A stretch of DNA of 64,000 nt from Betaproteobacteria bacterium (GTDB lineage: Bacteria > Pseudomonadota > Gammaproteobacteria > Burkholderiales > CAIKXV01), in contig CANGYF010000001.1 in the NCBI GenBank assembly GCA_947458265.1, positions 124,001 to 188,000 of the forward strand, in the 5' to 3' direction. The notes beneath the pieces were generated by a model. The model was not told the origin of the DNA. It saw only the letters and a program-made list of their open reading frames with translations, and searched no databases. Each line of letters begins with the position of its first letter. The stretch's first letter is position 1. Both the position numbers and the translations under genes were made by a program. Below are positions 33,176-48,435 of the stretch, one piece after another.

Positions 33176-33234
33176 GCGTGTCTGACCCGGATTATCCAGA
33201 GCCTGGGCCAAAATCCGGGTCAGAGACGGATTTG
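33176..33234. repeat. Palindromic repeat element, site 3
   Basis: The smallest site: inverted copies GTGTCTGACCCGGATTAT (33178-33195) and AAAATCCGGGTCAGAGAC (33110-33127 in the last part, that is 33210-33227) around a short loop. It sits between gcvH and the amidase gene. The arms match less perfectly than at other sites (GTGTC against GAGAC). The amidase reading frame runs into it and takes its stop codon (33220-33222) from the core TCTGACCCGG. Confidence 0.8.
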
Positions 33235-34656
33235 GGGGAGGAGGGGCACGCGCTCGTGCAGGCCGAGCTGCTGTTCCAGCCAGGCGCCGGCCGCGAGCAG
33301 GCGGTGCTCGGAACGCGGTGGGCCGATCAGCTGCATGCCGACCGGAAGGCCGCCTGCGGTGAGTCCGCAAGGCACCGCCAGCGACGGGCAGGCGGTGACG
33401 CTGATCGCGTAGGTCATCATCATCCACTGATAGTAGAAGCCGAAGCGCACGCCGCCGAACTCGTCGAGCTGGGCCAGCTTCGCGTCGAACGCCGGGGTGA
33501 TCGCGACCGGACACAGCAGCAGGTCGTGGTCGTCGAAGAAGCGCGCCACCCTGCGCGCGATCGCGGCCTGCGCGACATCCGCCTCGACCACCTCGCGCAC
33601 GCTGCGCGCCAGGCCCTGCTCGGTGTTCCACACCACGTTGGGACTCATGCGTTCCCGATCGCGGTCCATGATGTGTGCGAGCCGGCCGACATACAGGAAG
33701 CTGCGCAGCACCTGGAACACGAGGTCGGCATCCTGGAGGTCGGGACAGGCCTCCTCGACGCGCGATCCGGGCCCCTGCATCGCTTTCGCGGTGGTGCGGC
33801 AGATGCGCGCGACTTCGGGATCGACCATCGGCGCGATGCCCAGGTCGGGGCTGAACGCGATACGCGCCGGCAGCGCCGGCTCGCGTGCGGCGGACAGGAA
33901 CGAGCGCGCCGGCGCCGGCCGCGAAAGGGGATCGGCCCCGAGCTCGCCCGCCTGGCAGTCGAGCATCAGCGCGACATCGGCGACGGTACGCCCCATCGGG
34001 CCCTCGACCGACAGCGGCGAATAGGCCTGGCGCTGCACCCGAGCCACGGTGCCGGCCGTGGGACGCAGCCCGACCGTGCCGCAGAACGACGACGGGATGC
34101 GAATGCTGCCGGCGAAGTCGTTGCCGGTCGCAAGCCACACTTGTCCGGCGGCCAGCGCCGCCGCCGACCCGCCGGACGAACCGCCGCAGGTCTTGGTCGT
34201 GTCCCACGGGTTGTACGTGGTGCCGAACACGTCGTTGGTGGTGGTGCCGCCCGCCGCGAACTCGGGCAGGTTCGACTTGCCGATGACGATCGCCCCGGCC
34301 GCCTCCAGCCGGTCGACCACGACGTCGTTGGCCGGCGCGATCCGGTGCTCGAAGGCCATCGAGCCGCTGGTGCAGCGCACGCCGGCGACATCGATGTTGT
34401 CCTTCACCGCGATCGGCAGGCCATGCAGCCGTCCACGTCCGTCGCCACTGGCGCTCGTCGGGGCGCGCGGTGCGTCCATCAGCCGCTTTGCCTGGTCGCG
34501 TGCGCGGTCGAGGCAGAGCGTCGGCAGTGCGTTGATCGCGCCATCGGTAGCGGCGATGCGCGCCGCGGCCGCGTCCACCAGTTCCAGTGGCGACACCTGC
34601 CGGCGCTCGAGCAGGTCGACCGCGGCGCAGGCAGTGAGGCGGGTGAGTTCGGTCAT
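33220..34656 (-). CDS. Amidase signature family hydrolase
   Basis: A 478-residue amidase. The Ser-cisSer-Lys triad is recognisable: lysine in LPIAVKDNIDVAG, the cis-serine/serine pair in TCGGSSGGSAAALAAG and SIRIPSSFCGTVGLRPT. The oxyanion segment normally GTDGGGS reads GNDFAGS. The protein is cytosolic (no signal peptide), starting at ATG 34656 (MTELTRL). Substrate not predictable; candidates include aliphatic or aryl amides. The C-terminal residues QIRL and the stop are encoded by repeat site 3, so the original tail has been altered. Confidence 0.88.
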   Translation of the reverse strand: MTELTRLTACAAVDLLERRQVSPLELVDAAAARIAATDGAINALPTLCLDRARDQAKRLMDAPRAPTSASGDGRGRLHGLPIAVKDNIDVAGVRCTSGSMAFEHRIAPANDVVVDRLEAAGAIVIGKSNLPEFAAGGTTTNDVFGTTYNPWDTTKTCGGSSGGSAAALAAGQVWLATGNDFAGSIRIPSSFCGTVGLRPTAGTVARVQRQAYSPLSVEGPMGRTVADVALMLDCQAGELGADPLSRPAPARSFLSAAREPALPARIAFSPDLGIAPMVDPEVARICRTTAKAMQGPGSRVEEACPDLQDADLVFQVLRSFLYVGRLAHIMDRDRERMSPNVVWNTEQGLARSVREVVEADVAQAAIARRVARFFDDHDLLLCPVAITPAFDAKLAQLDEFGGVRFGFYYQWMMMTYAISVTACPSLAVPCGLTAGGLPVGMQLIGPPRSEHRLLAAGAWLEQQLGLHERVPLLPQIRL

Positions 34657-38027: not shown

Positions 38028-38617
38028 CGATCGACCATCCTGTCCGTGTTCCCGTCCTTGTGCTTCTCATGGCCGTCGCGGCCGGAGGCGAGCGTGGCGA
38101 GCGCGGCGCGCTCGGCTTCGGACAGATCGGGCATCGCGCGGGCCGCCGCGAGCGTGCGTCGATGCCGCAGTTGTCCAACGAGCAGGCCGAGCCCGATCGC
38201 CATCAGCAGGCCGGGACCGAACCAGAGCGCAATGGTCGTCCAGTCGAGCGGCGGACGGAACCGCACGAAGTTGCCGTAGCGCGCGACCATGAAATCGATG
38301 ACCTGCCGTTCGCTCATGCCGCTCTTGAGTTGCTCGCGGATCTCGTTGCGCATGTCGACCGCGAGCGAGGCATGCGAGTCGGCGATCGACTCGTTCTGGC
38401 AGACCAGGCAGCGCAGTTCCTTGGTCACCGAGATCAGGCGTTGCTCGAGTGCCGGATCTTCCGCGTTCGGACGGGCGACGCCGGGGGTGGTGGCTCCGGC
38501 GGCGGACGGCGCTTGCGCGGGGGCTGTGGTTGCCGCCGCCGGCACGGCAACCATCCCCGCCGCCAGCACGAGCGCATATACCAGCGGCATCAGCCGGGCT
38601 CGGGCGGGTACGCTCAC
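38024..38617 (-). CDS. ccmH: Cytochrome c-type biogenesis protein CcmH
   Basis: A 197-residue thiol protein. The redox motif is ELRCLVCQNESIADS (LRCxxCQN), preceded by a signal/anchor segment and followed by DWTTIALWFGPGLLMAIG, its C-terminal membrane helix. It reduces apocytochrome CXXCH thiols. The start was taken as GTG 38617, which forms a four-base GTGA overlap with the ccmG stop, matching the other junctions of the operon; ATG 38590 is an alternative. An Ala/Thr/Pro-rich stretch between signal and domain is longer than usual. Confidence 0.92.
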   Translation of the reverse strand: MSVPARARLMPLVYALVLAAGMVAVPAAATTAPAQAPSAAGATTPGVARPNAEDPALEQRLISVTKELRCLVCQNESIADSHASLAVDMRNEIREQLKSGMSERQVIDFMVARYGNFVRFRPPLDWTTIALWFGPGLLMAIGLGLLVGQLRHRRTLAAARAMPDLSEAERAALATLASGRDGHEKHKDGNTDRMVDR

Positions 38618-39138
38618 GATGCGCGCAGCTTCGCGATCAGCGGCAGCAAGGTGCGTTCGACCACCTGCGGGTTCAGCGGGCCGACATGCTTGAAGCGGAT
38701 CACCCCCTGCTTGTCGATCAGGTAGGTCTCCGGCGTGCCGTACACACCGTAGTCGATACCGACCCGGCCGGTCGGATCGACCACCGACAGGATGTACGGA
38801 TCGCCATGGCGCCTGAGCCAGGCGGTGGCCGCGGCTTCCTTGTCCTTGTAGTTCAGCCCGTAGACCGGGATGCCCTTCTTCGAGAGCACCTCGATAATCG
38901 GATGCTCTTCCAGGCAGGGCGTACACCATGAGGCCCAGACGTTCAGCAGCCAGACCTTGCCCTTCGCATCCTCGACCGAGAACTGCTTCTGCGGCTCGGC
39001 CAGCGTCGGCAGCGAGAACGCCGGCGCCGGCTTGCCGATCAACGGCGACGGCACCTCGCGCGGATTGAGCGTCAACCCGACCCCCAGGAACGCAGCCAGC
39101 ACCCCGAACCCCACCAGCGGCAACCACGCCCTGTTCAT
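38614..39138 (-). CDS. ccmG: Thiol:disulfide interchange protein CcmG/DsbE
   Basis: A 174-residue membrane-tethered thioredoxin. The N-terminal anchor (LPLVGFGVLAAFLGVGL) is followed by a thioredoxin domain with the active site ASWCTPCLEEHP and the YGTPETYLIDKQGVI cis-proline region. It reduces apocytochrome or CcmH disulfides in the periplasm. ATG 39138 overlaps the ccmF stop by four bases. A run of G bases that could serve as its ribosome site lies immediately beside the repeat element at the end of ccmF. Confidence 0.94.
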   Translation of the reverse strand: MNRAWLPLVGFGVLAAFLGVGLTLNPREVPSPLIGKPAPAFSLPTLAEPQKQFSVEDAKGKVWLLNVWASWCTPCLEEHPIIEVLSKKGIPVYGLNYKDKEAAATAWLRRHGDPYILSVVDPTGRVGIDYGVYGTPETYLIDKQGVIRFKHVGPLNPQVVERTLLPLIAKLRAS

Positions 39139-41258
39139 CGCCGCCCCCCAAAATCCGGGTCAGAGACGATTTTCGACAGTACACCGGCCGGCGACGCACC
39201 GGTGCCCGCACCCGGGCGGGAAATCGTCTCTGACCCGGATTTCGGAGGTGGCCCGCCCGGGCTCGGGCGGAAATTCGTCTCTGACCCGGATTTCGTGAAG
39301 CGGTCGCGGACCTTGACGCGGTAGCGGCGGTCGCAGACGGCGAGCAGGCCGCCCAGGGCCATCAGGAAGCAGCCGGCCCAGATCCAGTCGATGTAGGGCT
39401 TGTGATACACGCGCACGATCCACGATTCGCCGTTGTCGACCGGTTCGCCGAGCGAGACGTACAGGTCGCGGGTGAAGCCGGAGTCGATCGCGGCTTCGGT
39501 CATCACCATGCCGGAGGCGTTGTACACACGCTTCTGCGGTGCCAGCACCTCGACGAACTCGCCGTTCTTCAGCACGGTGATCCTGCCTTCCATCGCGCGG
39601 AAGTTCGGGCCCGGCACCTCGCGCACGCCGTCGAAGCGGAAGGTGTAGCCGCCCGACTGCACGACCTCGCCCACGCGCATGCGCACGTCCTGCTCGCTCT
39701 CGTAGCCGCGCACCATGGTCACGCCGACCACGAACACCGCGACGCCGAAGTGGGCGAGCAGCATGCCGTAGAAGCTGGCGGTCGGACGCGACAGCCGCGC
39801 AAACAGCGAGCCCTCGCCCTGGCGCACGCGCTGCACCAGCGAGGTGATCGCAGTCGATGCGATCCACATCGCGCACAGGATGCCGAAGGACGCGAGCGGG
39901 CTGAAGGTGCCGATGCCGGTCTGCGCGGACATCGCCAGCGGCACGATGATCGCGGTGATGACGCTGATGCCGAACGCCCAGCGCAGCCGCACCGCGAGCT
40001 CGGGCAGCGTCGTCTTCTTCCACTTCGCGATCGGCCCGATGCCCATCAGGAACATCAGCGGCGACATCAGCGGCAGGTAGACCGAGTCGAAGTAGGGCGG
40101 GCCGACCGACAGCTTGCCCAGGCCGAGCGCATCGATGATCAGCGGATACAGCGTGCCGAGCAGGATCGAGGCCGCAGCCACCACCAGCAGCACGTTGTTG
40201 CCGAGCAGCGCCGACTCGCGCGACATCAGGTCGAACGAGCCGCCCAGGCCGATCTTCGGTGCTCGCCAGGCATAGAGCGCCAGCGAGGCGCCGATCGAGA
40301 CCACCAGGAAGGCGAGGATGTAGAGGCCGCGCTCGGGGTCGGATGCGAACGAATGCACCGAGGTCAGCACGCCCGAGCGCACGAGGAAGGTGCCCAGCAG
40401 CGACAGCGAGAACGCGCTGATCGCGAGCAGCACGGTCCAGCTCTTGAATGCGCCGCGTTTCTCGGTCACCGCCAGCGAGTGGATCAGTGCGGTGCCGACC
40501 AGCCACGGCATGAACGAAGCGTTCTCGACCGGATCCCAGAACCACCAGCCGCCCCAGCCGAGCTCGTAGTAGGCCCAGGCCGAGCCGAGCGCGATGCCCA
40601 GCGTGAGGAACAGCCAGGCGACGGTCGTCCAGGGTCGCGACCAGCGCGCCCAGGTGGAGTCGAGCTCGCCCGAGATCAGCGCCGCGATCGCGAAGGCGAA
40701 GGCGACCGAGAAGCCGACGTAGCCCATGTAGAGCAGCGGCGGGTGGATCACCATGCCGATGTCCTGCAGCAGCGGGTTCAGGTCACGGCCATCTGCGGCA
40801 GCCGGGATCAGCCGCTCGAACGGGTTCGACGTGAACAGCATGAACGAGAGGAAGCCGACGCTGATCATGCCCATCACCGACAGCACGCGCGCGAGCAGCG
40901 GCGCCGGCAGCTGGCGGCTGAACACGGTGACCGCGACCGTCCAGCCGGCGAGCATGAACGCCCAGAGCAGCAGCGAGCCTTCGTGCGAACCCCAGGTGGC
41001 GGTGAAGCGGTAGGTCATCGGCAACTGCGAGTGCGAGTTCTGCGCGACGTTCAGCACCGAGAAATCCTGTGCCATGAAGCTGTACGCGAGCGCGCCGAAG
41101 GCGAGGGTGACGAACACGCCCTGGCCCTGTGCGACCGGACGCGCCATCGCCATCCACGCATCGATGCCGCGCTGCGCGCCGATGAGCGGGAACACCGCCT
41201 GGATGCCAGCGAGCACCAGCGCGAGGATCAGACAGAAATGGCCGAGTTCCGGGATCAC
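39135..41258 (-). CDS. ccmF: Heme lyase CcmF with a repeat-derived C-terminal tail
   Basis: A 707-residue polytopic heme ligase subunit. The WWD heme-binding motif is [19 protein letters not shown], and conserved histidines ([22 protein letters not shown]) are present. About fifteen membrane segments end near residue 655 ([18 protein letters not shown]). After RDRFT the last 50 residues are encoded by three copies of the dispersed repeat, read as [20 protein letters not shown] and [10 protein letters not shown], so the tail is foreign to the family. The frame still ends in the four-base overlap with ccmG. It attaches heme to apocytochromes with CcmH and CcmI. Confidence 0.95.
39149..39296. 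repeat. Palindromic repeat element, site 4 (inside ccmF 3' end)
   Basis: Three core copies: AAAATCCGGGTCAGAGACGA (from 39150), the inverse GTCTCTGACCCGGATTTCGG (to about 39244) and a second inverse copy (GGAAATTCGTCTCTGACCCG, about 39268-39295). Two GC-rich spacers (around CCCGGGCGGG) separate them. The whole element is within the ccmF reading frame without causing a stop on that strand. Confidence 0.87.
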
Positions 41259-42686: not shown

Positions 42687-42708
42687 CGAAGGAAGGGTAC
42701 GGGCTCTT

Positions 42709-43389
42709 TCAGTCCAGCGAAATCCGCACGGCCGCGGCCGCAGCCCAGGGTGCAAAGGTCAGGGTGAACACCGTCAGCGCGGCGAGCAGCGAGAGGTGGC
42801 CCCCCGCATCCAGCCCGCCCAGTGTCGCCTCGACGGCACCGGCACCGAAGATGAGAGCCGGAATATACAGCGGCAGCACGAGGACCGCAGTCAAAACGCC
42901 TCCGCCCCGCAGCCCGAGCGTGAGCGCAGCACCGACTGCGCCGATCGCCCCGAAGATCGGCGTGCCGAGCGCCAGCGAGCCGACCAGCACCCAGGTCGCC
43001 GAGGCCGGCAGGTCGAACTGCAGCGCGATCAGCGGCGCGAGCAGCGTCAGCGGCAGGCCGGTTGTCAGCCAGTGGGCGACCAGTTTCGCGAACACGATCA
43101 ACGACAGCGGCTGCGGCGCCAGCGCGAGCTGTTCCAGCGTGCCGTCCGCATGATCGGCCGCGAACAGCCGCGGTAGCGCGAGCAGCGAGGCGAGCAGCGC
43201 CGCCACCCACAGCACGCCCGGCGCGATCTCGCGCAACAGCTCCGGCTGCGGCCCGATGCCCAGCGGGAACAGACTGACCACGATGATGAAGAAAAACAGC
43301 GTCGTCATCAGCTCCGCCGGCCGGCGCAGCGTCAACAGCAGATCACGCCGCAGCACAGAAATCGGGGTCAGACACCAATTAAAGCTCAC
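42709..43389 (-). CDS. ccmB: Heme exporter subunit CcmB with repeat-derived N-terminus
   Basis: A 226-residue ABC-2 type membrane protein with six helices; LRRDLLLTLRRPAELMTTLFF and RLFAADHADGTLEQLALAP are diagnostic. Normal CcmB proteins begin just before the LLRRDLLL-like segment. Here GTG 43389, which has GGGAG six bases ahead, adds eleven residues (SFNWCLTPIS after the start) encoded by a copy of the dispersed repeat. A second GTG at 43356 matches the family start better but has no ribosome site. It pairs with the ATPase CcmA, from which it is separated by 199 bases. Confidence 0.92.
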   Translation of the reverse strand: MSFNWCLTPISVLRRDLLLTLRRPAELMTTLFFFIIVVSLFPLGIGPQPELLREIAPGVLWVAALLASLLALPRLFAADHADGTLEQLALAPQPLSLIVFAKLVAHWLTTGLPLTLLAPLIALQFDLPASATWVLVGSLALGTPIFGAIGAVGAALTLGLRGGGVLTAVLVLPLYIPALIFGAGAVEATLGGLDAGGHLSLLAALTVFTLTFAPWAAAAAVRISLD

Positions 43390-43574
43390 CGAGCACTCCC
43401 AGGCTGACCGCTGAAATCCGGGTCAGAAATCCGGGTCAGACACGATTTATCGAGCACTCGAGCGGAAATCCGAGCGGAAATCCGAGCGGAAATCCGGGTC
43501 AGACACCATTTATCGGGCACGCGAGGTAACTTCGGAGCGGTCGCTCCGATAAATGGTGTCTGACCCGGATTTCC
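43358..43574. repeat. Palindromic repeat array, site 5 (between ccmA and ccmB)
   Basis: The largest site. It contains GGGGTCAGACACCAATT (from 43364), a tandem TCCGGGTCAGAAATCCGGGT, a second GACACG copy, three to four tandem 12-base units of GAGCGGAAATCC type (43460-43497), and a perfect 29-bp inverted repeat, 43488-43516 with 43546-43574. The inner stem reads CACCATTTATCGG, unlike the GACGAATT stems of sites 1 and 2. It separates two genes that usually overlap. Confidence 0.88.
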
Positions 43575-43588
43575 GTGCTGTTCGTCCG

Positions 43589-44218
43589 TCATCGGGCACC
43601 GCCCAGGCGCAGTTGGTGCAAGGTCGCCGGCGCCGCCGGCTCGATCGCATGGTGCGTCGCCACCACCGCGACGCCGCCGTCGTGCAGGTGCCGCCCGAGC
43701 CGTGCGATGAACGCATCCGCCGCTTCGGTGTCGAGCGCGGCGAGCGGCTCGTCGAGCAGCCAGAGCTTGCGGCTGCCGAGGTAGAGCTGCGCCAGCGCGA
43801 CGCGGCGTCGCTGGCCCTGCGACAGCACCCGTCCGGGCAGCATCTCGCGGCCGGTGAGGCCGACTTCGGCCAGTGCGGCGCCGATGGCTGCGGCATCCAC
43901 CGTCACGCCCGCGATTCCGGCCGAGATCGCCAGGTTCTCGCGCGCGGTCAGGTCGTCCTTGATCGCCGGCGCATGCCCGAGGTAGCAGAGGTCGGCGAAA
44001 TACTCGTCGCCCAACTCGTCGACCGGCGTGCCTTTCCAGCGTACCTCCCCCGATTCCGGACGCGCGAGCCGGGCCAGCACCCGCAGCAGCGTCGTCTTGC
44101 CGGTGCCGTTGCGGCCGGTCACCTGCAACAGCCCACCCGCCGGGACGGAGAAGTCCAGGCCGGCGAACAGCACCCGATCGCCACGGGCCGCGGCGAGGGC
44201 GGAGACTTCGAGCAACAC
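43589..44218 (-). CDS. ccmA: Cytochrome c maturation ATPase CcmA
   Basis: A 209-residue ABC ATPase. Walker A is GRNGTGKTTLL, the signature is LSQGQRRRVALAQL, Walker B is LWLLDEPLAALD, and the switch histidine is in VVATHHAIE. It drives release of holo-CcmE from CcmC. The start was set at GTG 44218, which has GGAGG just ahead; TTG 44215 and an upstream GTG 44257 are alternatives. First gene of the ccm operon, whose promoter should lie in 44219-44301. Confidence 0.92.
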   Translation of the reverse strand: MLLEVSALAAARGDRVLFAGLDFSVPAGGLLQVTGRNGTGKTTLLRVLARLARPESGEVRWKGTPVDELGDEYFADLCYLGHAPAIKDDLTARENLAISAGIAGVTVDAAAIGAALAEVGLTGREMLPGRVLSQGQRRRVALAQLYLGSRKLWLLDEPLAALDTEAADAFIARLGRHLHDGGVAVVATHHAIEPAAPATLHQLRLGGAR

Positions 44219-44301
44219 GACCTCCAATGGAATCCTGGACAGGCCCCGCGCCTGCACCTCCCGATTCTACGCTGCGGCAGGGTGCTAACCGCCCGGGCAG
44301 G

Positions 44302-45297
44302 CTATCTGACCTGCTCCATCTTGAGCCCCGCTTCCTTGAAGAAGCGCGCCCAGCGTGCGATTTCGTCACGAATGTGGGTGCCGAACTGCTGCGGCGAATT
44401 GGCTGCGGCGGGATCCAGACCCTGCCGGATCAGGCCTTCGCGAAAGTCGCTGGATGCGAGCGCGCGCATGGTTTCCGCATTCAGGCGCTTGACGATGGCA
44501 GCCGGCGTCGCCGCAGGCGCAGTGACGCCAAACCACTGGACCACGTCGAAGCCGGGCAAGCCGGACTCTGCGAGCGTGGGGACCTCGGGTGCAGCTTCGG
44601 AACGCCTGGCGCTGGTCACGCCGAGCGCCTTGAGCCGCCCCGCCTTCACATGTGGAAGCGAGGTTGAAACCGATCCGAACAGCAGCTGTACATGGCCGCC
44701 GAGCAGGTCATTGGATGCGGGCGCACCTCCCTTGTAAGGTATGTGCATCAGCTTGATGCCGGCCGAGCGTGCGAACAGCTCGCCAATGAGATGCGACGTG
44801 GTGCCGGTGCCCGGAGACGCAAAGGTGATCGTGCCGGGCGATGCCTTCGCGAGCGCGATCAGGTCCTTGACCGACTGCACCGGTACCGATGGATGCGCGA
44901 CGAGGATATTGGGCACCAGCACGGCCAGGGCGATCGGCGCGAAGTCGCGCAGCGGGTCGTACGGTAGGTTCGCTTCCAGGCTTGGCGCGAACGCGAAATT
45001 GCTCGAGGAGGCCAGCAGGATCGTATGGCCGTCGGGCGCCGCGCGCGCCGCGAGCTCCACGCCGATGTTGCCGCCAGCGCCGGCCCGATTGTCGACGACG
45101 ACCTGCCGGCCCAGCGCCTCGGTGTACTTCAGCGACAGCATGCGGGTGACCACATCGGCTGCCCCGCCGGCGGGGAACGGGCAGAGGAATCGGATCGGCT
45201 TGTCTGGCCATGCCTGGGCGTGGGCGGCTTGCTGCCCCTGCCCTTACAGGCCGGCGCATGCAAGCATCAGCGCGCCTGCGCGAATCGTTACGTTCAT
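44302..45297 (-). pseudogene. Bug/TctC-type receptor gene with a stop codon in its signal peptide
   Basis: Reading from ATG 45297, the protein starts MNVTIRAGALMLACAGL, then meets TAA (45244-45246), and continues in the same frame with GQGQQAAHAQAWPDKPIRFL, the normal end of a signal peptide and start of a mature Bug receptor. The rest is intact for about 300 residues (VVDNRAGAGGNIGVELAARA, HIPYKGGAPASNDLLGGHVQ, VPTLAESGLPGFDVVQW). The family binds carboxylates in the periplasm. A single base separates it from an intact gene, so it is a recent lesion, a sequencing error, or a suppressed stop. Translation from an internal start would give a protein without export signal. Confidence 0.83.
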
Positions 45298-46311: not shown

Positions 46312-47325
46312 TCATTCCGGCTTGAGGCCGGCGGCTTTCACGACAGAGGCCCACTTGGGGATCTCGCGGGCGATGAACGCGCCGAGTTCCTCCGGCGTTC
46401 CGGCCACGACATCGACGCCCTGCGTGGCGAAGCGCTCGCGCACCGTGGCATCCGACATCGCCGCCTTGAAGGCGCCGTGCAGCCGGGTCACCACCTCGCG
46501 GGGCAGGCCATGCGGTCCTAGCAGCCCGTACCAGCCAGCAGACTCGAAGCCCTTCAAGGTCTCGCTGACGGTCGGCACCTTCGGCAGCAGTGCGGAGCGG
46601 GTCGGCCCGCAGACCGCGATTGCGCGCAGCCGGCCAGCCTCGATATGCGGCAGCGTCGCCACCAGTGTGTTCACCTGAAACTGCACATGGCCGCCAAGCG
46701 TATCGGTCAGCGCAGCGCCCGCGCCCTTGTACGGCACGTTCACGATGTCGATACCGGCCATCGACTTCAGCAGTTCGACCGCCAGGAACTGCGACGTACC
46801 CGCCGACGTGCCGGCCGCGAGCTGTCCCGGGCGCGCCTTGGCCAGCGCGATGAACTCCTTCACCGTGCGCGCGGGCAGCGAAGGATGCACCACCAGCACT
46901 GTCTGCACCGTTGCCAGCAGGGTGATCGGCGTGAAGTCGCGGACCGGGTCGAACGCGAGCTTCGCGAACAGGCTGGGGTTGATCGCGTGCGGCGTGCTGG
47001 CCATCAGGAGCGTGTGCCCGTCCGGCATCGCGCGGGCGACGAACTCAGTACCGATGTTCGTGCCGCCCCCGGCCCGGTTCTCGATCAGCGCGGGCTGGCC
47101 GAGCAGTTCGCCGAGTTTCGGCGCGATCGCCCGCGCGATGATGTCGGTGCCACCGCCCGGGGCGGCCGGTACCACCAGACGCACCGGCTTCGACGGAAAC
47201 GGATAGGGCTGGGCGTGCGCCGCGCCAGCGCAGGCGAGGGCGAACGCGGCGGTGGCAACGGCCGCGGCCCGTGAACGGGCGGTGGGTCGGGTATCGCGCG
47301 GGCCGCGCAGGTCGTTCGTCATCAT
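46312..47325 (-). CDS. Bug/TctC-type tripartite tricarboxylate receptor
   Basis: A 337-residue periplasmic receptor. The signal peptide ends around AFALACAGAAHA. Mature-domain landmarks are KPVRLVVPAAPGGGTDIIAR, IENRAGGGTNIGTEFVARA, VNVPYKGAGAALTDTLGGHV and VPTVSETLKGFESAGWYGLL. It captures a carboxylate for a TctAB permease; none is in the window, as is typical for expanded Bug families of Burkholderiales. ATG 47325 or 47322 may be used. It diverges from the next Bug gene with a 72-base shared promoter region. Confidence 0.92.
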   Translation of the reverse strand: MMTNDLRGPRDTRPTARSRAAAVATAAFALACAGAAHAQPYPFPSKPVRLVVPAAPGGGTDIIARAIAPKLGELLGQPALIENRAGGGTNIGTEFVARAMPDGHTLLMASTPHAINPSLFAKLAFDPVRDFTPITLLATVQTVLVVHPSLPARTVKEFIALAKARPGQLAAGTSAGTSQFLAVELLKSMAGIDIVNVPYKGAGAALTDTLGGHVQFQVNTLVATLPHIEAGRLRAIAVCGPTRSALLPKVPTVSETLKGFESAGWYGLLGPHGLPREVVTRLHGAFKAAMSDATVRERFATQGVDVVAGTPEELGAFIAREIPKWASVVKAAGLKPE

Positions 47326-47397
47326 CGGCGCAGCATGCCCGAACGCGCCGATTGATTCCAGAGACAGGATAGGATCGCCGACTCTGGAGGACACACG

Positions 47398-48435
47398 ATG
47401 AACCACGCAGACCACCCCGCTACGCCCAGCCCGCGCAGGCGCCGGCTAGTGGCGGCCGCAGGCTCCACGTTCGCGACCCTGGCCACCGGCATCGTCGCCG
47501 CAACAAGCACCACCCCCGCCCGCGCCCAGCAGCCCGCCCCGACCAAGCCCATCCGCCTGATCGTCCCCTATCCCGCCGGCGGCGGCACCGACGCGCTCGC
47601 TCGCACCATCGCCCCGGAACTCAGCGAGGCCCTCGGCCAGCCGGTGATCATCGACAACCGACCCGGCGCCAACGGCATCATCGGCAGCGACGCGGTCGCG
47701 CGCTCGAAGCCCGACGGCAGCACCTTCCTGCTGACCATCGCCAGCCACACCATCAACCCGCTGCTGTATACGAAGCTGCCCTACGACAACGAGAACGACC
47801 TCGTGCCGGTGACCCTGGTCGCCGAATACCCGTTCGTGCTGGTCGTGCACCCGGCGCTGCCGGTGAAGAGTGCGAAGGAGTTCATCGCACTCGCCCGCAA
47901 GCGCAAGGGTGAAGTCACCTACGCCTCGTCCGGCAACGGCAGCGGTCCGCACCTGGGCATGGAGCTGCTGGCCGCGATGGCCGACATCGACATGATCCAT
48001 GTGCCGTACAAGGGCGCTGCGCCCGCCACCGCCGACCTGCTCGGCGGACAGGTGCAGGCGATGCTCAACAACTTCCTCGCCTCGGCGTCGCTGATCCGCG
48101 CCGGACGCCTGCGTCCGCTGGCGGTGACCAGCCTGAAGCGCTCGGCCGCGATGCCCGAGCTGCCGACGCTCGCTGAATCCGCACTGCCCGGCTTCGAGGT
48201 GAACGGCTGGTACGGCCTGTTCGCCCCGCGAGGCACTACCCCGGCCACGCTCAACGCCATGCAGGAGGCCGTGGCCAAGGCGATGCGCCGCCCCGCCGTG
48301 GCCGAGCGCCTGTCCGGCGATGGCGCCGTCGCCGTCACCAACACCCCGGCCGCCTTCGCCAAGTACCTGCGTGCCGACAGCGAGAAGTGGGCGAAGGTGA
48401 TCAAGCGCGCGAAGCTCGCCCCCGAGACGCTCTGA
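47398..48435 (+). CDS. Bug/TctC-type tripartite tricarboxylate receptor
   Basis: A 345-residue receptor with a Tat-like export signal: PSPRRRRLVAAAGSTFATLA, cleaved near ATSTTPARAQ. Landmarks are KPIRLIVPYPAGGGTDALAR, IDNRPGANGIIGSDAVARSK, IHVPYKGAAPATADLLGGQV and LPTLAESALPGFEVNGWYGL. It heads a plus-strand unit with an alpha/beta hydrolase (13 bases downstream) and an MmgE/PrpD protein, which suggests that the captured compound is then processed by these two enzymes. Ligand unknown. Confidence 0.92.
   Translation: MNHADHPATPSPRRRRLVAAAGSTFATLATGIVAATSTTPARAQQPAPTKPIRLIVPYPAGGGTDALARTIAPELSEALGQPVIIDNRPGANGIIGSDAVARSKPDGSTFLLTIASHTINPLLYTKLPYDNENDLVPVTLVAEYPFVLVVHPALPVKSAKEFIALARKRKGEVTYASSGNGSGPHLGMELLAAMADIDMIHVPYKGAAPATADLLGGQVQAMLNNFLASASLIRAGRLRPLAVTSLKRSAAMPELPTLAESALPGFEVNGWYGLFAPRGTTPATLNAMQEAVAKAMRRPAVAERLSGDGAVAVTNTPAAFAKYLRADSEKWAKVIKRAKLAPETL

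Follow-up and report, generated by a model that had tools for sequence, protein, structure and literature searches.

A repeat array between ccmA and ccmB may be bridged by a relay frame opened by the old ccmB start

The genes ccmA and ccmB usually overlap or abut, and in the genome studied here they lie 199 bases apart, with mostly repeats between them. This raises the question of whether ccmB is still coupled to ccmA across the insertion, and where CcmB now begins. The locus belongs to a 4.01-megabase draft genome (G000; 33 contigs, 97% complete), and the window, by which we mean the whole stretch of 64,000 nucleotides that was analysed, is G000:C1:124001-188000. The operon is read from the minus strand in the order ccmA, ccmB, ccmC, ccmE, ccmF and a ccmG-type gene. 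The genes needed here are:

43589 to 44257, minus strand: ccmA (NF010061, 241.9 bits, cut-off 195; TIGR01189, 209.1 bits, cut-off 131.6)
43589-43591, minus strand: ccmA stop codon TGA, part of ATGA 43589-43592
42709 to 43389, minus strand: ccmB from GTG 43389 (PF03379, 255 bits; TIGR01190, 251.6 bits, cut-off 156.2; 7f02_B, 3.9e-58)
38614 to 39138, minus strand: ccmG-type thioredoxin gene (Redoxin PF08534, 83.8 bits)

The ccmB product passed the family models PF03379 and TIGR01190 and was assigned as the CcmB heme exporter subunit. At the 5' end of ccmA, the model match opens at residue 14 and our own gene caller prefers 44215 over the annotated end at 44257. Two TctC receptor genes (44302-45153 and 46312-47415) are found near the operon. 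An Rfam scan of the window gave no match at gathering scores.

The first-pass annotation had claimed that the two genes are normally contiguous and that repeat copies and a 12-base tandem separate them here, and both points proved sound. Outside the genus, 263 loci gave 249 distinct usable junctions after removal of 11 duplicates and 3 loci without both genes: 138 overlap by 4 or 1 bases, 103 are near, 7 are far and 1 is odd or misread. As 241 of these 249 junctions are tight, a gap of 199 bases is unusual. An earlier set of 114 loci, less 6 duplicates, 5 without both genes and 1 misread, left 102 that were counted. The gap itself is real, ccmA ending at 43589 and the ccmB frame opening at GTG 43387-43389. 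Four degenerate direct copies of the repeat were found in the spacer, together with inverted copies and tandems:

43356 to 43580, both strands: repeat array, with plus-strand cores at 43363-43375, 43431-43443 and 43494-43506, a partial core at 43418-43430 and a minus-strand core at 43556-43568
43459 to 43496, plus strand: 12-base tandem CGAGCGGAAATC, 3.2 copies, each unit supplying four codons (SARI) to the relay frame described below
43487-43516 and 43546-43575: perfect 30-base inverted pair with a 29-base loop, seen in the repeat search and in the fold

A 13-base tandem is also present at 43413-43440. The array core CCGGGTCAGACAC has 19 matches in the window with up to 2 mismatches, where 2.8 were expected and none of 100 shuffles reached 19; the consensus of the core is CCGGGTCAGA(C/G)AC. 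The minus-strand transcript of 43340-43620 folds much better than its shuffles (z -6.8).

The same core is dispersed through the genome, where it occurs exactly at 104 places (reversed-pattern control, 0) and with up to 1 mismatch at 142 (reversed pattern, 8). The DNA around 100 listed of these 142 places contains the 115 core matches that were analysed, which group into 47 clusters of 1 to 5. By our own gene caller, 20 of the clusters among the matches listed lie between convergent genes, 22 between co-directional genes, 3 between divergent genes and 2 at edges, and the repeats listed are mostly opposite-facing pairs outside genes. They do not have the GTAG tag: GTAG stands within 25 bases of 4 of the 115 core matches listed, as compared with 11 for the same-letter control GATG. 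The motif GGGGWSAS is carried by 2 of the 115 matches listed in G000, and also occurs at the transposase loci of G007, G009 and G010.

A single Y1_Tnp match is present in G000 (62.1 bits, cut-off 23). The best NCBIfam match of this transposase, REP_Tyr_transpos NF047646, scored 74.8 bits and thus fell below the cut-off of 80, and a PDB sequence search with the protein gave no match at E 0.001. An NHVHL-type motif was found in the Y1 transposases of four congeners, and inverted repeats of the array type flank the transposase on both sides at all four loci examined (G000, G010, G007 and G003). Y1 matches occur in 8 of the 11 genomes of the genus. Their co-occurrence with the core is good but imperfect: G001 and G005 have neither, G009 has the transposase and no exact core, and G002 has 12 cores and no transposase match in an assembly that is 84% complete. 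The best explanation is that transposase-associated repeats of the RAYT/TIRYT type entered the old ccmA-ccmB overlap and make up the array; it is the TIRs of TIRYT genes that they resemble most closely.

Elsewhere in the window, the stop codon of an Amidase gene (33220-34656) is supplied by a repeat core at 33215-33227. At L143:1076-3138, the frame of the downstream gene runs unbroken upstream through two repeats to a GTGA at the stop of the preceding gene, which is possibly another in-frame bridge; the pair presumably comprises an ornithine-carbamoyltransferase-like gene and, as its partner, a TctC-like gene.

The first-pass annotation had missed that the ATG at which ccmB formerly started is still present and opens a frame across the whole array:

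43590 to 43592, minus strand: surviving old ccmB ATG, which forms a 4-base overlap with the ccmA stop (ATGA 43589-43592)
43386 to 43592, minus strand: relay frame of 68 codons, formed by the old ccmB 5' end and the array, with its TGA 43386-43388 overlapping GTG 43387-43389 (GTGA)
43396 to 43400, minus strand: ribosome site GGGAG, 6 bases before GTG 43389

The direct overlap of ccmA with ccmB is gone, and a stop/start overlap is now found at either end of the relay frame, at ATGA 43589-43592 and at GTGA 43386-43389.

The junction was seen in 9 of the 11 genomes, and 8 of these 9 carry an insert. The same ATGA stands at this place in G001, G002, G006, G007, G008, G009 and G010. G001 and a second ccm copy in G009 lack an insert, and their ccmB begins with the ATGA over the ccmA stop. 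The two ccmA-ccmB copies of G009 (L161 and L004), of which one carries the array and the other is bare and 88% similar to the query, represent either a second operon or a mixed assembly. The relay is 43 codons long in G007 and G009 (L003 and L004), 22 in G010 (L005) and 52 in G002 (L159), where it ends as ATGGTGA. Its interior measures 61 bases in G010, 124 in G007 and 199 in G000, the differences being 63 and 75, and a difference of 27 bases between two contigs of G002 leaves the frame intact. All three differences in array length are thus divisible by 3, in a comparison made entirely on draft assemblies, where repeat arrays are prone to misassembly.

In G006 and G008, the frame from the same ATG passes through a short GGGGTC(A/T)GACCCC palindrome and continues without a break as CcmB. 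The 5' end of the relay, which is of the ATGAAGGA type in G007, G009 and G010, aligns with the ccmB 5' end of G006 and G008, and the most natural reading of the relay frame is therefore the old start of ccmB, now severed from its gene. In G004 (L007), CcmA is extended into the array, and the ccmB frame stays open upstream as far as a GTG lying 3 bases past the CcmA stop; an ATG two codons before the family block is a caveat to counting this junction as a translated path from ccmA to ccmB, as we have done. Judged by their frames, the other repeat-bearing congeners thus appear to keep a translated path too, in frame in G006 and G008 and by way of an extended CcmA in G004. The idea that the array splits the operon between ccmA and ccmB stands as far as the 199-base separation goes; the comparative evidence indicates that this split is bridged by the relay, and the operon is probably not split.

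As to the start of CcmB, the earlier proposals that GGGAG serves GTG 43389 and that the repeat supplies a new N-terminus both agree with the comparison. The site lies on the minus strand at the spacing given above, and this spacing is kept with GGGAG in G007 and G010, though the 6 bases after it differ. Codons 2-11 of CcmB (SFNWCLTPIS) are repeat-derived, and G007, G009 and G010 retain the GTG, the GGGAG and the repeat-encoded NWCLTPI segment. CcmB thus probably starts at GTG 43389, with about 10 residues taken from the repeat.

On balance, and by a modest degree of confidence, we favour the reading that the array is bridged by a translated relay frame, with termination-reinitiation keeping ccmA and ccmB coupled. 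The repeats would have inserted at the old overlap in such a way that the old ccmB start stayed on the ccmA stop. Ribosomes finishing ccmA would re-initiate at ATG 43590-43592, translate the relay to TGA 43386-43388 and re-initiate again 1 base back at GTG 43389, helped by GGGAG. Two 4-base overlaps would in this manner replace one long untranslated gap and preserve the coupling, at the cost of a short by-product peptide, and CcmB would gain its repeat-encoded start. From the frames we infer translation of the relay, the double re-initiation and selection for the relay. According to passages of PMC10666635, native E. coli pairs lose 40 to 80% of their re-initiation at a spacing of +14 and (almost) all of it at +38, and about +38 bases (almost) abolish it in E. 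coli and Haloferax pairs. A plain gap of 199 bases should therefore uncouple ccmB. With moderate confidence, it may be said that insertions persist at this junction mainly where translation from ccmA to ccmB stays continuous.

Far junctions outside the genus bear on the same point. In four of the seven (L014, L085, L087 and L096), a relay ends at -4; in L106 the frame ends 8 bases short, and L080 and L193 have no relay. The Zoogloea spacers of L080 (54 bases) and L085 (55 bases) are sisters, and only that of L085 is in phase. L087 comes from the culturable Zoogloea sp. LCSB751, and its spacer is 91 bases long. The spacer of L014 holds CCCCTCCTTGAAAAGGAGGGG, found at 132 places in its own genome with up to 2 mismatches (control 0), and the spacers of L087 and L096 hold GGGCGAATGAATTCGCCCCTACAGG, found at 126 and 504 places, respectively, on the same terms (control 0). 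For the L085 spacer, one place was found within the locus DNA examined. The repeat of L014 is unrelated to that of L087 and L096, and the same outcome has therefore been reached with different repeats: unrelated palindromic repeats appear to have entered the same junction with an outcome that is the same in shape.

The chance of a relay was estimated from dinucleotide shuffles of the interiors together with a probability of one third for being in phase; the xTGA of the ccmB start was taken as given. Under this null, the chance per junction is 0.06 to 0.32, and 0.255 for G010. At least 7 relays among 9 junctions then have P 0.00013; with one entry per lineage, at least 5 of 6 have P 0.0014, or P 0.006 for at least 5 of 7 when L080 is set apart. 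G000, G007, G009 and G010 share descent. The P values omit L004 and L096 (near copies), L007 (which counts as near) and L193 (found later), and they are post hoc, having been computed on the same set in which the relay was noticed. New samples were also drawn. A class-level sample of 108 loci (28 loci and 80 consecutive rows) gave 105 usable junctions, with 45 overlapping, 59 near and 1 far (L193), which is unbridged. An order-level sample of 22 loci was divided into 11 overlapping and 11 near, and a further 40 order-level junctions, the first 40 of 60 rows chosen by family from the order-level list, into 22 and 18. As these samples held one far junction, bridging was testable there in one case only.

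The openness of the frames is also informative. Across the four arrays of the genus (G000, G007/G009, G010 and G002), 1 of 8 other plus frames and 2 of 12 minus frames are open, and frame 0 is open by construction until its stop, the position of the stop being the informative part. Repeat clusters elsewhere in G000 (39 clusters) served as a control: 86 of their 234 frames are open, and 16 of 66 where the cluster is longer than 120 bases. Of the co-directional clusters of G000 that lie outside ccm, about 20 among the matches listed, one (L130) has a -4 relay; the repeats by themselves therefore do not give a relay, and the relay as a general law of these repeats was rejected on this count. The relay of L130 looks like chance, its downstream gene, which we take to be glutaredoxin-like, having a leader of its own.

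The main alternative is independent initiation, in which the insertion uncoupled the genes, GGGAG alone starts CcmB at GTG 43389 and the relay is a by-product of stop-poor repeats. The ribosome site is indeed well spaced and is conserved in G007 and G010, repeat clusters are often open, as the 86 of 234 frames attest, and the short relay of G010 arises easily by chance (0.255). Independent initiation was moreover deemed the likelier route for pairs near +10 in passages of PMC10666635. Against it speak three unrelated spacer types with 4-base overlaps at both ends, length differences that are in frame in three of three cases, a combined null of 0.0001 to 0.006 and the recurrence of the pattern in just one of about 20 other co-directional clusters among the matches listed. 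We accordingly regard independent initiation as unlikely, if still a serious contender.

Predicted RNA folds were compared with and without the array, the array-removed RNA beginning 6 bases before the ribosome site. The accessibility of GGGAG rose on removal in G000 (0.11 to 0.20), G007 (0.05 to 0.38) and G002 (0.08 to 0.20) and fell in G010 (0.57 to 0.40), and the start codon of G002 became less open (0.25 to 0.05). Such calculations lend weak and mixed support to coupling through the relay.

A further alternative, in line with the earlier suggestion that a hairpin in the middle of the operon could lower CcmB to CcmI relative to CcmA, is a plain split by the array, with decay, pausing or termination as the cause of the lowering. 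The strong fold of the transcript (z -6.8) fits this, and operon-junction repeats have been proposed as post-transcriptional control elements (passages of PMC3733652). A consensus scan of 42700-44300 yielded no promoter and no terminator-like site; in addition, the array lies in an open frame joined at both ends, and the congeners G006 and G008 read their insert in frame. As the array is within an open frame, ribosomes arriving from ccmA could unwind the hairpin. We find a plain split improbable.

The weakest proposal, that CcmB starts at GTG 43356 and everything upstream is an untranslated leader, has in its favour that this GTG is in frame and stands where the TIGR01190 model begins, and we consider it most improbable and rejected it, since the codon is GTT in G010, leaving no start codon there, since the equivalent codon serves as the start in 1 of the 241 tight junctions from beyond the genus, and since no ribosome site is seen before the GTG, as the first-pass annotation had itself remarked. 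The equation of 43356 with the family start is thereby contradicted. When the starts of the tight junctions are scored at the start nearest to the 4-base overlap, 130 of the 241 lie 6 or 7 codons upstream of the 43356-equivalent codon, and E. coli CcmB has 5 residues before this position. The point at which TIGR01190 begins may have misled the earlier annotation.

A second array occupies the ccmF-ccmG junction of the same operon:

39135 to 39308, minus strand: C-terminal tail of CcmF encoded by repeats (57 codons beyond residue 650), its stop forming an ATGA on ccmG

Here the ccmF stop shares bases with the ATG of the ccmG-type gene (39136-39138). A CcmF was identified in 10 of the 11 genomes and has a repeat-made tail in 8 of these, of varying type and length (38 to 92 codons); in all eight, the stop forms an ATGA with the start of the following gene. 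Over the tail stretches, the other two frames are open in 3 of 16 cases. Of the two CcmF ends without repeats, that of G001 ends as ATGA and that of the G009 copy has no overlap. The ccmF repeats differ between congeners, being of the CCGGGTCAGAGAC, CCCGGGTCAGACAC and GGGGTCTGACCCC types (L120, L112-L119), which suggests replacement or repeated insertion at one spot.

More tentatively, and at rather less than even confidence, we propose that dispersed repeats in coupled junctions are filtered for frame. The survivors would be relays or in-frame extensions, different families would repeatedly come to bridge ccmA and ccmB, and the old gene start would be cut off as a stand-alone relay while the gene is given a new one. 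If bridging by a relay is true, it explains how a tightly coupled operon can accommodate repeats and still function. It would provide a natural allele series (22, 43, 52 and 68 codons, and the in-frame fusions) with which to gauge how strict the coupling is, and a route for the birth of small ORFs and for shifts of gene starts. It would also bear on whether ribosomes between operon genes re-initiate locally or scan, and annotators would be expected to call relay frames spurious and to misplace CcmB starts.

Transposase-associated repeat families are already known, as are repeats read in frame inside proteins; the apparent novelty lies in repeat arrays acting as relays between coupled genes and recurring with unrelated repeats. 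The open-licence literature searched held no paper that joins ccmA and ccmB, or REP repeats in operons, with translational coupling, and among the papers listed on related subjects no title or abstract opening describes such a relay. The repeat family shares with TIRYT/TIRtron systems a Y1 gene flanked by non-GTAG inverted repeats and copies dispersed as dimers and clusters, as described in passages of PMC3733652. GGGGWSAS is given there as common to some TIRs (Di Nocera et al. 2013, PMC3733652). Compared by this motif description, the GGGGTCAG copies fit, whereas most copies here read CGGGTCAG and are one base off. The resemblance to REP/RAYT REPINs (passages of PMC3116915 and PMC8266576) lies in short extragenic repeats that are mostly paired in opposite orientation and in a putative REP-type transposase encoded by the genome; unlike these, the repeats here are without the GTAG tag.

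Repeat clusters read within proteins or ending them are known; Thauera and R. conorii offer examples of 43 to 82 residues (passages of PMC3733652). The CcmF tails and the CcmB of G006 and G008 are similar to such REPs and Rickettsia palindromic elements inside genes, from which the present repeats differ in that they also make a separate intergenic frame with an overlap at each end. ATGA and GTGA overlaps between genes of one complex are likewise typical of termination-reinitiation pairs as described in passages of PMC10666635 and PMC6728339, but here two overlaps stand in series across an insertion. Finally, as with iraD (passages of PMC5574718), a short ORF would be coupled to a downstream gene; the ORF of iraD is a regulatory leader, whereas the relay links two genes of an operon.
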